Shown here: one piece after another, positions 57,685 through 60,821 of the stretch | How the letters are laid out: each line of letters starts with the position of its first letter | How positions within the stretch are numbered: the stretch's first letter is position 1 | NCBI RefSeq assembly: GCF_026017845.1 | Contig: NZ_CP100416.1 | Coordinates: forward strand, 1,455,945 to 1,519,944 | Length of the DNA stretch: 64,000 nucleotides | Direction: 5' to 3' | DNA from: Amycolatopsis mediterranei | GTDB taxonomy: Bacteria > Actinomycetota > Actinomycetes > Mycobacteriales > Pseudonocardiaceae | The notes under the pieces: generated by a model | What the model saw: the letters and a program-made list of their open reading frames with translations, nothing else | Databases searched by the model: none | What the model was told of the DNA's origin: nothing | Position numbers and translations under genes: made by a program

Positions 57685-57690
57685 TACCGT
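57685..57690 (+). promoter_or_regulatory. -10 hexamer TACCGT before the T-box leader
   Basis: TACCGT (TAnnnT) would start the transcript near 57697, just at the first stem of the T-box. No convincing -35 element is visible. Confidence 0.4.
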
Positions 57691-57696
57691 GGCCGG

Positions 57697-57950
57697 CAAC
57701 GCGCTGATGGAGCCGAGTAGTCCCGGGAGCGCACGGGTCGAGAGAGCCGCCGGTAGCTGGGAAGGCGGTCCCGTGCCCGGCGGCGAAGACCCTCCGGAGT
57801 GCGGGGAGGAACGGCGTCCGCGCCCCATGCCCCGCCGGCCGGCCCCCGTCACCGGGCCGCGAAGAGGCCGCCTCACCGGCGGTGAAAGTGCGGTGGCACC
57901 GCGATTCCCCTGATCGCCCGCACTCCCGAGGGATCCGTGTTGGGAGGGTG
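57697..57950 (+). ncRNA. T-box riboswitch (translational type, Asp-specific by prediction)
   Basis: Stem I has base pairs GGAG 57709-57712/CTCC 57792-57795, a specifier loop with AGTA (57716-57719) opposite GAA (57785-57787) followed by specifier GAC (57788-57790), CCGGG/CCCGG and CACGGG/CCCGTG helices, and a distal AGAGAG-containing region (57741-57746). The T-box proper is GCGGTGGCACCGCG (57890-57903); TGGC (57894-57897) would pair with tRNA 3' GCCA, so the discriminator is G, as in tRNA-Asp. AGTGCGG (57887-57893) pairs with CCGCACT (57918-57924); alternatively CTCCC (57923-57927) pairs with the GGGAG ribosome site (57942-57946). Charging of tRNA would thus set translation. Confidence 0.85.
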
Positions 57951-59165
57951 ATGAGTTCTCGTGTTCTGGCCGCCGACCTGCCCCGGTACGTCGGCGCCCG
58001 CGTCCGCGTCGCCGGCTGGGTGCACCGCCGGCGCCGCCTGAAGTCCGTCACATTCGTCGTGGTCCGGGACCGTTCCGGGCTCGCGCAGGTCGTGCTGCGC
58101 GGTGCCGCGCCACCGGAGGAAACCGTGGTGGAGGTGCACGCCACCGTGTCGGCCAACCCGCGCGCACCCGGTGGCGTCGAGCTGACCGAGCCGGTGGTGG
58201 AAACGCTGGCCGAAGCGGTGCCGCCGCCGTTCGACCTCTACCGGCCCGCCGTCACCGCGTCGCTGCCGGCGATCCTCGACCACGCGCCGGTCGCCCTGCG
58301 GCATCCCGCGCTGAAGGAGCGCTTCGCGGTGGCCGCGGCCGCCGTGCGCGGGTTCCGGTCCACTTTGGACAGCCGAGGGTTCACCGAGGTGCACACGCCC
58401 AAGATCGTGGCGTCGGCGACCGAGTCCGGCGGATGCGTCTTCGGCATCGACTACTTCGGCCGCCCCGCCTACCTCGCGCAGTCGCCGCAGTTCTTCAAGC
58501 AGGCCCTCGTCGGCGTGTTCGAACGCGTCTACGAGGTCGGCCCGGTCTTCCGCGCCGAGCCGCACGACACGGCCCGGCACCTCGCGCAGTACACCAGCCT
58601 CGACGTCGAGCTGGGGTTCATCCGGGACCACCACGACGTCATGGCCGTGCTCCGCGAGGTACTGGCCGGGATGTCTGACCCGGCGCTGGTCACCGTGCCC
58701 GAAGAGATCCCGGAGATCCACTTCGCGGCGGCGGTGGACCTGCTGGAGGCGGACCCGCGTGAGCCCGACCTCGCCCCGGCCCACGAACGGGCGCTGTCGG
58801 AGTGGGCGCGGCGCGAGCACGGGTCGGATTTCCTGTTCGTGACCGGTTACCCGATGGCGAAGCGGCCGTTCTACACGCACCCCGACCCGGCGCGGCCCCG
58901 CTACTCGAACAGCTTCGACCTGCTCTTCCGCGGGGTGGAGCTGGTCACCGGCGGCCAGCGCCTGCACCGGCACGCCGACTACCTCGCGGTGCTGGGCGAC
59001 GCCGCGCCGGAGTACGCCGATTACCTGCAGGCGTTCGCGCACGGCATGCCACCCCACGGCGGCTTCGCGATCGGTCTGGAACGCTGGACGGCGCGGCTGC
59101 TCGGCGCCGCGAACGTCCGGGAGGTCACGCTGTTCCCGCGCGACCTGCACCGGCTGACCCCGTGA
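57951..59165 (+). CDS. Aspartyl-tRNA synthetase-like protein, compact archaeal/non-discriminating type
   Basis: The 404-residue class II enzyme has an N-terminal OB-fold anticodon-binding domain (VRVAGWVHRRRRLKSVTFVVVRD), catalytic motif 2 (FRAEPHDTARHLAQYTSLDVE), the AspRS flipping/recognition region (YLAQSPQFFKQ) and motif 3 (GGFAIGLERWTARLLG). It lacks the GAD insertion of the usual 590-residue bacterial AspRS, so it is probably a second AspRS or AspRS/AsnRS-like enzyme. ATG 57951 follows GGGAGGG closely. It is regulated by the T-box upstream; downstream genes follow after 9 and 63 bases. Confidence 0.9.
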   Translation: MSSRVLAADLPRYVGARVRVAGWVHRRRRLKSVTFVVVRDRSGLAQVVLRGAAPPEETVVEVHATVSANPRAPGGVELTEPVVETLAEAVPPPFDLYRPAVTASLPAILDHAPVALRHPALKERFAVAAAAVRGFRSTLDSRGFTEVHTPKIVASATESGGCVFGIDYFGRPAYLAQSPQFFKQALVGVFERVYEVGPVFRAEPHDTARHLAQYTSLDVELGFIRDHHDVMAVLREVLAGMSDPALVTVPEEIPEIHFAAAVDLLEADPREPDLAPAHERALSEWARREHGSDFLFVTGYPMAKRPFYTHPDPARPRYSNSFDLLFRGVELVTGGQRLHRHADYLAVLGDAAPEYADYLQAFAHGMPPHGGFAIGLERWTARLLGAANVREVTLFPRDLHRLTP

Positions 59166-59174
59166 GGAGGGCCC

Positions 59175-60002
59175 ATGACCGCTCGTCGCCTCTGGGCGGC
59201 CGTGGAACCGCTGCACGCCGTCGTCTACTTCGCGCCCGAGACGGCCGAAGCGGCGAAGGCGGCCGGCTTGCGCGGCTACTGGATGGGCTACTTCGCGGGG
59301 CGGCTGGCGCCCCTGGGCCCGATCGGTCCCGGGCCGGCGACGGCGATGCTGTTCGGCTTCGCGCCGGCGATGGTGGCCCGGGCGGTGCCGGACGCGTGGT
59401 CGTTCGCCTCGCCCGCGGCCGTCCTCGGGTCCCGGCTCGAGGCGGTGGGCTCGGCGTTGCGGGCGGTCGCGGACGACGTCTCGGAGCTGAGCGCGCTCCT
59501 GTGGCGGGCGGCGGAGGCGTGTGAGTTCGGCGGCCGCCCGCTCGCGGCGGCGTGGGCGGCGGTGCCGAAGCCGGCGGACCCGCTGTCGCGCCTGTGGCTG
59601 GCGACGACGATCCTGCGCGAGCACCGCGGCGACGGCCACGTCCTGGCGGCGGTCCACGCCGGGCTGGACGGCTTGGAGACGACGCTCACCCACATCGGTG
59701 ACGGTGTGATCGGCCGGCAGGACGTCCAGCCCCACCGCGGCTGGTCGGACCCCCAGTGGGACGCGGCGGTGGACCGGTTGCGGACCCGCGGCATCCTCGA
59801 CGCCGACGGCCGCCTGACCGACGCCGGGCGCGAGCTGCGCCGCGGGCTCGAGGACGACACGGATCGCCTGGCCACGGCCCCGGTCGAGGCCCTGGGCGCG
59901 GACGTCGAGCGGCTGCTGGAGCTGGCGGTGCCGCTGGCACGGGCGGTGCTCGACAGCGGCGTCGTCCCGGTGCCGAACCCGATGGGTGTCACCCGTCCGT
60001 GA
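59175..60002 (+). CDS. SCO6745 family protein
   Basis: The 275-residue protein starts MTARRLWAAVEPLHAVVYFA and has repeated helical segments (AAGLRGYWMGYFAGRLAPLG, WLATTILREHRGDGHVLAAV) and a C-terminal winged-helix-like part (VDRLRTRGILDADGRLTDAG). This matches the actinobacterial SCO6745 family, whose function is unknown. GAGGAGG precedes the ATG. It follows the AspRS-like gene by nine bases, so it is under the T-box transcript. Confidence 0.8.
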   Translation: MTARRLWAAVEPLHAVVYFAPETAEAAKAAGLRGYWMGYFAGRLAPLGPIGPGPATAMLFGFAPAMVARAVPDAWSFASPAAVLGSRLEAVGSALRAVADDVSELSALLWRAAEACEFGGRPLAAAWAAVPKPADPLSRLWLATTILREHRGDGHVLAAVHAGLDGLETTLTHIGDGVIGRQDVQPHRGWSDPQWDAAVDRLRTRGILDADGRLTDAGRELRRGLEDDTDRLATAPVEALGADVERLLELAVPLARAVLDSGVVPVPNPMGVTRP

Positions 60003-60065
60003 GTGTCGATTCCGGCCGGGCCCGCTCGACGCACCGGTGAACGCACCCGGACTTCGGAGGATTCC

Positions 60066-60821
60066 ATGACGTTGCTCGCCGGCAAGAACGCGATCATCTA
60101 CGGCGCCGCGGGGCGGATCGGCACGGCCGTCGCCACCGCGTTCGCCGGGGAAGGCGCCCGGGTGTTCCTCGCCGGCCGGACCCGGGCCCGCCTCGACGCG
60201 CTGGCCGGCGGCATCCGCACGGCCGGCGGCCGGGCCGAGCCGGCGGTGGTCGACGCCCTCGACGAGCGAGCGGTGGACGAGCACGCCGCCGCGGTCGCCG
60301 CCGAGGGCGGGATCGACGTCTCGGTCAACCTCATCGGCCACGGCGACGTCCAGGGCAAGCCGCTGGTGGAGATGGCGCTCGCGGACTACGAACGCCCGGT
60401 GGTGACGGCCGTGCGCACCCAGTTCCTGACCGCCCGCGCGGCGGCCCGGCACATGATCGCGCGGCGGTCCGGGGCGATCCTGTTCTTCGGGGGCGCGGCC
60501 GATCCGGTGCGGGAGTTCGCGGTCGGCGGGCTGCAGGTGGCGTTCCACGCGCTGGAGGCGATGCGCCGCCAGCTCGCGGCCGAGCTGGGCCCACACGGGA
60601 TCCGCACGGTGACGCTCCGGACCGGCGGCATCCCGGAGACCCTCCCGGTGGACTTCCCAGGGAAGTCGGAGTTGGCGGAGAACATCGCGGGCAAGACGAT
60701 GCTGGGCCGCGCGGCGACCTTGGCCGACGTGGGCGCGGTGGCGGCCTTCGTGGCCTCGGACCGAGCGGCTTCGATGACGGCGGCGACGGTGAACGTCAGC
60801 TGCGGCGCTTTGGTCGACTAG
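60066..60821 (+). CDS. SDR-fold protein lacking the YxxxK catalytic motif
   Basis: The 251-residue protein has the NAD(P)-binding motif IIYGAAGRIGTAVA and the fold order of SDRs, with C-terminal VNVSCGALVD. At the active site the usual YxxxK is replaced by the sequence VGGLQVAFHALEAM, so Tyr and Lys are missing. It may bind nucleotide without classic catalysis or use other residues. ATG 60066 has GGAGG at 60056-60060. It lies 63 bases after the SCO6745-family gene. Confidence 0.8.
   Translation: MTLLAGKNAIIYGAAGRIGTAVATAFAGEGARVFLAGRTRARLDALAGGIRTAGGRAEPAVVDALDERAVDEHAAAVAAEGGIDVSVNLIGHGDVQGKPLVEMALADYERPVVTAVRTQFLTARAAARHMIARRSGAILFFGGAADPVREFAVGGLQVAFHALEAMRRQLAAELGPHGIRTVTLRTGGIPETLPVDFPGKSELAENIAGKTMLGRAATLADVGAVAAFVASDRAASMTAATVNVSCGALVD

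Follow-up and report, generated by a model that had tools for sequence, protein, structure and literature searches.

Most T-boxes attenuate transcription. Among the various T-boxes of Actinobacteria, those described are located mainly at ileS, and few long stems are known among the translational T-boxes (PMC1262725, PMC7583486, PMC7778990, PMC2494555; here and below, the literature cited by PMC number is represented by portions of its text). In Clostridium acetobutylicum, redundant AspRS and GatCAB genes are under T-box control (Saad 2012, 2013, cited in PMC4206432), and one of the three aspS genes of this organism was marked for a T-box (PMC2494555). In Bacilli, the hisS-aspS operons carry one T-box, which may sense both tRNA-His and tRNA-Asp (PMC4342826, PMC7927825). 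Resistant second synthetases form another related group, including IleRS2 (mupirocin), SerRS (albomycin) and TrpRS (indolmycin) (PMC9437257). Extra AspRS genes in Actinomycetales have also been noted, and no role was offered for them in the portion of that paper used here (PMC4206432). In a partial search of partly available literature, no description of an actinobacterial aspS T-box was found; the Asp T-box and spare AspRS regulon of actinomycetes is seemingly undescribed.

In the present study, the leader and the gene behind it (aspS2) were analysed in the window, which is the whole stretch of 64,000 nucleotides of Amycolatopsis mediterranei DNA. We are confident that this leader is an Asp-specific T-box with a full-length stem I, most probably translational, which controls an accessory archaeal-type AspRS beside the housekeeping enzyme. 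The features are given below in window coordinates.

57685..57690, + strand: TACCGT, a -10-like hexamer and putative promoter element just 5' of the leader (direct reading)
57695..57950, + strand: whole Asp-specific T-box leader (RF00230 match and covariation in 37 leaders)
57709..57795, + strand: stem I, with base GGAG 57709-57712 / CTCC 57792-57795 (helices 1-4 of the alignment)
57716-57719 and 57785-57787, + strand: AGTA and GAA, the specifier-loop motif inside stem I (direct reading)
57741-57746, + strand: AGAGAG of the distal stem I (direct reading)
57788..57790, + strand: specifier GAC (Asp), complementary to anticodon GTC (directly after GAA; cmscan register)
57867..57883, + strand: stem III hairpin (helix 7, 4 of 7 pairs changed on both sides)
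57887..57924, + strand: antisequestrator, with A1 57887-57893 / 57918-57924 and A2 57901-57905 / 57913-57917
57892..57903, + strand: T-box core GGTGGCACCGCG, with the tRNA-acceptor bulge TGGC at 57894-57897 (direct reading)
57923..57927, + strand: CTCCC, anti-Shine-Dalgarno (direct reading)
57942..57947, + strand: ribosome-binding site GGGAGG, with GGGAG at 57942-57946 (direct reading)
57951-57953, + strand: ATG start codon of aspS2 (direct reading)
57951..59165, + strand: aspS2, archaeal-type aspartyl-tRNA synthetase of 404 aa (P0001; profile, domain and structure matches)

The leader elements named in the first-pass annotation (core, AGTA/GAA, GAC, TGGC, CTCCC and GGGAG) were all found at or beside the places it gave, and its T-box call was borne out by a covariance match over the full model and by covarying helices. 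In the covariance-model search, RF00230 matched 57695-57924 over the whole model (1-219) with 46.4 bits, at an E-value of 3.1e-9 in a 401-base stretch and of 1.9e-8 in the search of the whole genome. This score lies below the Rfam gathering score of 93, which was reached in 0 of 80 genomes of the genus, and no family reached its gathering score in the Rfam scan of the window. In the cmscan register at the GAC specifier, one model position is deleted before the specifier. Near the place equivalent to the -10-like hexamer, TANNNT was seen by eye in several of 18 relatives inspected.

The covariation alignment held 37 leaders, among them that of the window, out of 72 with GAAGAC. A consensus structure of 52 pairs was obtained with RNAalifold, and 19 of these were changed on both sides. 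For the 48 pairs named by hand, 97.9% of cells were paired, as against 92.7% in shuffled alignments and 45.5-50.9% in slid versions, the last comparison being biased in favour of the tested structure because it was drawn from the same alignment; 18 of these pairs and 95 cells were changed on both sides. None of the five covariation measures was matched by the shuffles (0/500). All cells (100%) of the antisequestrator (helices 8 and 9) were paired, and 4 of its 12 pairs were changed on both sides; the innermost pair of stem III is non-standard in the window. Helix 1, at the base of stem I, never varies and is thus uninformative either way. The folding energy of the window leader alone gave no signal in comparison with shuffles (z = 0.36), hence single-sequence energy is not evidence here, the evidence being the covariance match and the covariation. 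A chance resemblance within GC-rich DNA would agree with this energy and with an RF00230 score under the cut-off, but is hardly conceivable and was rejected in view of the E-value of 3e-9 across the whole model, covariation that no shuffle equalled, and the presence of the leader at the same place in 79 of 80 relatives. The segment 57695-57950 is a full-length T-box leader.

These relatives were the best 80 of 283 obtained by a scan of a contig collection, so that the set leans to close relatives; the nearest among them are Amycolatopsis (97% identity, L003). The T-box core was found upstream in 79 of the 80 with ACAG variants counted, the sole exception being a MAG (L025) in which no core was seen upstream. 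All 79 carry an Asp leader: 71 have GAAGAC before the core, and eight, as judged by eye, have an ultrashort stem I with GAC plus a purine in the loop (L055, L057, L060, L065, L073, L074, L081, L082). In one GAAGAC relative (L080), stem I is shortened, and both AGTA and AGAGAG are missing. The expected conservation of GAC and TGGC was thus observed, GAC in 79 of 80 relatives and the bulge with T in place of the fourth base C (UGGU) in 11 of 77 aligned rows; UGGU could pair with a discriminator G by wobble. The tRNA-Asp(GTC) of the genome, of which one gene was seen among 30 tRNA loci examined (of 51 matches), has the discriminator G73, complementary to the fourth base of UGGC, and the specifier codon GAC is cognate to the gene behind the leader. 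Both the specifier and the fit of the bulge therefore agree with the Asp specificity first proposed. As for the suggestion that an Asp-specific T-box of full length is unusual, the leader itself was confirmed, but it is no isolated oddity; it belongs to a regulon that recurs in actinomycetes.

From the arrangement of these elements, we infer a switch with the following steps. When the charging of tRNA-Asp falls, uncharged tRNA-Asp would pair with the GAC specifier through its anticodon and with the UGGC bulge through its GCCA end, by which the antisequestrator would be stabilised. The overlapping anti-SD CUCCC would then be withheld from the ribosome site, and aspS2 would be translated. The acceptor end of a charged tRNA is unable to fit into a T-box, and with charged tRNA-Asp the ribosome site would stay sequestered. 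The benefit of the spare enzyme would be to restore the charging of tRNA-Asp whenever the housekeeping AspRS is inhibited or cannot keep pace.

The CTCCC shares C57923-T57924 with the antisequestrator, thus the two pairings are mutually exclusive there. In the window, the free fold left the ribosome site unpaired with a probability of 0.01, and forcing the antisequestrator raised this value to 0.32, a partial exposure. Over 69 of the 80 leaders (11 were left out, among them the window, which was modelled apart with L003, L004 and L039), the mean SD accessibility was 0.37 in the ON fold versus 0.27 in the OFF fold; it was higher in the ON fold in 46 of 69, and the ON value was above 0.5 in 21 of 69. 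Five or more Watson-Crick pairs between anti-SD and SD were counted in 38 of the 80 leaders, four in 22 and three or fewer in 20. Since a helix of five or more pairs is seen in just 38, the OFF fold is not uniform. Both the accessibility and the pair count lend translational control modest support. A swap test gave no support for covariation of this helix (rank 0.52). The alternative pairing of CTCCC with GGGAG, read earlier from the window, is present in the window itself and is neither uniform among the leaders nor backed by covariation. A second candidate helix, of the A2 loop CCCUU with AAGGG downstream, also had no support in the swap test (rank 0.49) and was rejected. Concerted changes of the switch helices were seen by eye in some lineages and were not counted as evidence. 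In the ultrashort leaders, the anchor cut several short in the swap tests and shifted some in the pair count, hence helix lengths there are unreliable. In the Nocardioides-type ultrashort leaders, the SD is covered by a ACCUCCAG/CUGGAGGU match, as seen by eye (L057, L073 and L081 were in the accessibility model).

It is unlikely, in our judgement, that the leader attenuates transcription rather than translation. Transcriptional T-boxes typically have a long stem I that carries distal motifs (PMC7583486), and the support for SD pairing is uneven across the leaders; but no U-run was seen by eye after the hairpins of the window, the SD is hidden in the free fold of the window, and the ACCUCCAG/CUGGAGGU match lies over the SD in the Nocardioides-type ultrashort leaders. 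Translational control is the better reading because of SD sequestration, the absent U-run and the ileS precedent.

The aspS2 protein passed the NF003483 profile (aspartate--tRNA(Asn) ligase; 484 bits, cut-off 353) and missed the narrower TIGR00458 (300.1 bits, cut-off 368.4). It has an OB-fold (PF01336) and a class II core (PF00152), and its closest solved structure is 1n9w, Thermus AspRS 2, over the full length. A search for a standard aspS elsewhere in the genome found a bacterial-type aspS on the same contig (2983590-2985326, 691.5 bits), 1.5 Mb from aspS2, and the 404-aa archaeal-type enzyme is therefore, as first described, a second, compact and non-housekeeping AspRS. The bacterial-type aspS had no RF00230 match in the whole-genome search at E 0.001, and the roughly 600 bases upstream of it contained no core motif. 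Across the 10.6 Mb genome, two RF00230 matches were obtained at this threshold, the aspS2 leader and one at 3262112-3262277 (G000:C1:3262112-3262277; L002 1501-1666). The latter has 37.9 bits, also under the Rfam cut-off, and shows by eye an ultrashort stem I with AUC. It precedes an ileS frame (best NCBIfam match ileS, 505.8 bits against a cut-off of 621.4; the examined frame ends at 480 residues), and the initial remark that actinobacterial T-boxes are mostly translational and upstream of ileS also agrees with the portions of the literature used here.

In the genus of the window, NF003483 matched at E 1e-80 or better in 42 of 80 genomes, 41 of them over the cut-off, and aspS2 is thus patchy. 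In 38 of these 42, comparison of the coordinates by hand placed an RF00230 match on the strand of the gene, no more than about 450 bases upstream of it. One genome (G021) has a leader which was missed by RF00230 at E 0.001, so that the absence of an Rfam match is weak evidence. No leader was seen in G003, G027 and G053, which have both aspS2 and the bacterial-type AspRS. In G030 and G075, the aspS2 behind the leader is diverged or frameshifted, and in G053, G063, G064 and G066 the gene has frame breaks or a stop; such breaks, stops and divergence may be due to sequencing error. Six aspS2 copies among the loci collected from the genus (L131-L135 and L140) look frameshifted, stopped or diverged; except for L131, each has a T-box upstream.

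The class was sampled evenly with 296 genomes from 106 genera; the archaeal-type AspRS was found in 28 of these genomes and 16 of these genera, with the T-box core upstream in 18 of the 28 loci. Twelve of these leaders have GAAGAC, five have an ultrashort stem with a TGAC loop (by eye), and one (L146) reads GGAG-CAGACA-CUCC; the bacterial-type AspRS is also present in all 18 of their genomes. Ten genomes lack the leader. Nine of them, all of the family f33, had no bacterial-type match at E 1e-60, and the tenth (G086) has one. The nine f33 enzymes (L160-L165, L167-L169) form a deep separate clade with no T-box, and the pair of anticodon-domain residues that is H/P in the T-box clade is E/K in eight and D/K in one of the rows without leader. 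Since the nine genomes with a sole AspRS belong to one family and one deep clade, they represent the replacement in one lineage and not nine independent cases, and the association of the leader with the bacterial-type AspRS is confounded by kinship. The Rfam search of 16 class-sample loci (L167 and L169 left out) found the leader in L142, L147, L148, L156 and L158, in L147 and L158 in part. No Rfam match was obtained in L146, L151 and L154 even at E 1, hence the assignment of these loci, like that of the ultrashort leaders at large, depends on motifs seen by eye.

On a maximum-likelihood tree built quickly from 110 AspRS rows (SH-aLRT only), the ultrashort leaders fall in two places (2 changes), Catellatospora within the long-leader Micromonosporaceae and a clade of Nocardioides, Myceligenerans, Oerskovia and others. 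The leader of L146, ultrashort on inspection, is sister to the long-leader L145 and marks a third place. The AspRS of L156 clusters with those of f33, to which it is 50-54% identical, as against 38% to the protein of the window. It has a long GAC leader upstream, and on a Streptomyces plasmid (L173, 4217-5802) an AspRS 38.7% identical to that of the window sits behind a GAAGAC T-box of 80.6 bits. At least two types of AspRS are found behind GAC leaders, and the occurrence of similar leaders before these different enzymes indicates that the kept unit is Asp sensing together with an AspRS.

With tblastn, 18 PLSDB records with such an AspRS were obtained, two of them chromosome-sized (11.85 and 2.6 Mb). 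Among the six of these records examined, an RF00230 match precedes the AspRS on the Paraclostridium, Streptomyces and Streptantibioticus plasmids. The Paraclostridium leader has 118.3 bits, over the cut-off, with the register GAA-A-GAC. A second partial T-box core was observed on this plasmid at 4407-4437 (L172 4097-4437), and its T-box is possibly a tandem leader. The Rhodococcus plasmid has an ultrashort leader by eye and no Rfam match at E 0.1, and no leader was seen with RF00230 or by eye before the AspRS of the Rhizobium leguminosarum and Macrococcus plasmids.

The AspRS2 of Thermus and Deinococcus makes Asp-tRNA-Asn for GatCAB. The aspS2 product could likewise be a non-discriminating enzyme, with the leader tuning the asparagine route, as the family name of NF003483 (aspartate--tRNA(Asn) ligase) would suggest. 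The protein has H25 and P73 in the anticodon-binding domain, which we take to be marks of non-discriminating AspRS, and this pair is kept in 79 of 82 long-leader rows and 13 of 13 ultrashort rows. In addition, GatB is present in the genome, and the AsnRS profile search of the genome gave no match over the cut-off. The best AsnRS match was a frame of 344 residues (G000:C1:5511519-5512463; L087, L091) covering only model positions 132-454, and the AsnRS which PMC4206432 reports for A. mediterranei could be such an AsnRS-like gene. Nevertheless, the specifier is GAC and not AAC in 79 of 80 relatives, the AspRS of L156 has N and K at the places of H25 and P73 behind the same kind of leader, and the gene is absent from about half of the genus. 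On this evidence, we regard a leader that serves the asparagine route as improbable; an accessory AspRS governed by the charging of tRNA-Asp is preferred.

For the accessory AspRS, induction would be expected under AspRS inhibition or Asp shortage, and a role in inhibitor tolerance is conceivable. A special case would be self-immunity, in which a neighbouring antibiotic cluster makes an AspRS inhibitor and the T-box is on during production. There is precedent for it in the resistant second synthetases (albomycin, mupirocin, indolmycin; PMC9437257), P450-like, SCO6745-family and SDR-like genes flank aspS2, and the AspRS of the Macrococcus plasmid comes after an MFS transporter and a frame weakly matching M3 peptidases, below the cut-off. 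We give self-immunity little credence, since no neighbour within about 6 kb is widely common across genera. The widest neighbour clusters held 26, 24 and 24 of 81 loci, all of them from Nonomuraea apart from one Thermoactinospora at most; among the clusters that include the window, the widest (SDR-like) had 11 of 81 loci, namely 10 Amycolatopsis with the window included and one Umezawaea. ORF calling in the neighbourhoods was a rough GC-frame filter, which picked up aspS2 itself at 77 of 81 loci. A general tolerance agrees better with this picture than immunity to a single product does. It was also observed that, in the window (59175-60821), the SCO6745-family gene starts 9 bases after aspS2 with the SDR-like gene directly next, and co-transcription of the three genes is possible. 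On the Macrococcus plasmid (L175 1169-5736), methyltransferase and MFS-transporter genes and the weak M3-peptidase-like frame are followed by the AspRS; this locus could be for production of, or immunity to, a peptide compound.

A wider reading is put forward tentatively, as a joint proposal that we consider possible and somewhat less probable than its contrary. The leader and the spare AspRS would constitute a portable tRNA-Asp-sensing tolerance module, kept or lost as the threat comes and goes, which recurs in actinomycetes and, with related leaders, on Actinomycetota and Clostridia plasmids, and in which at least two types of AspRS occur. Such a spread would point to natural AspRS inhibitors, abundant in soil and so far undiscovered, with a target of the microcin C kind, and stem I would have shrunk to ultrashort about three times independently in one regulon. 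The recurrence of the leader with a spare AspRS in many actinomycetes and on some plasmids is what one would expect of an inducible backup. Provided that the tolerance reading is true, the module may serve as a marker for undiscovered AspRS-targeting natural products.

The present findings add an Asp-sensing regulon to the actinobacterial T-boxes, which are known mainly from ileS, and this regulon lies under the Rfam cut-off in every genome of the genus searched (0/80 over). The extra AspRS genes of Actinomycetales thereby gain a testable role as an inducible spare. Furthermore, long, intermediate and ultrashort stem I occur on related genes, a natural series in which the role of stem I is directly comparable.

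In comparison with the known systems, the leader is like the translational T-boxes of ileS in its core, antisequestrator, presumed SD-hiding logic and actinobacterial host; those have an Ile specifier, a housekeeping gene and mostly a short or ultrashort stem I, whereas here the specifier is Asp, the gene is a spare AspRS and stem I is mostly long (PMC1262725, PMC7583486). With C. acetobutylicum it shares a T-box on an extra AspRS gene, but that system is from a Firmicute and linked to asparagine supply, while here an Asp specifier and a presumed SD-based switch are found. The Bacilli hisS-aspS leaders also place an AspRS gene under T-box control with possible Asp sensing; they belong to a housekeeping operon and are transcriptional, in contrast to the separate spare AspRS with a GAC specifier. 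The resistance synthetases are similar in being spares beside a housekeeping synthetase, patchy and with relatives sometimes plasmid-borne, but differ in that the AspRS here is without a known inhibitor or resistance and T-box induction is a proposal. Finally, Thermus thermophilus AspRS2 (1n9w, 3kfu) is the closest solved relative and likewise a second AspRS beside a bacterial one; it is tied to Asn formation (PMC4206432), whereas the actinomycete gene stands behind an Asp T-box.
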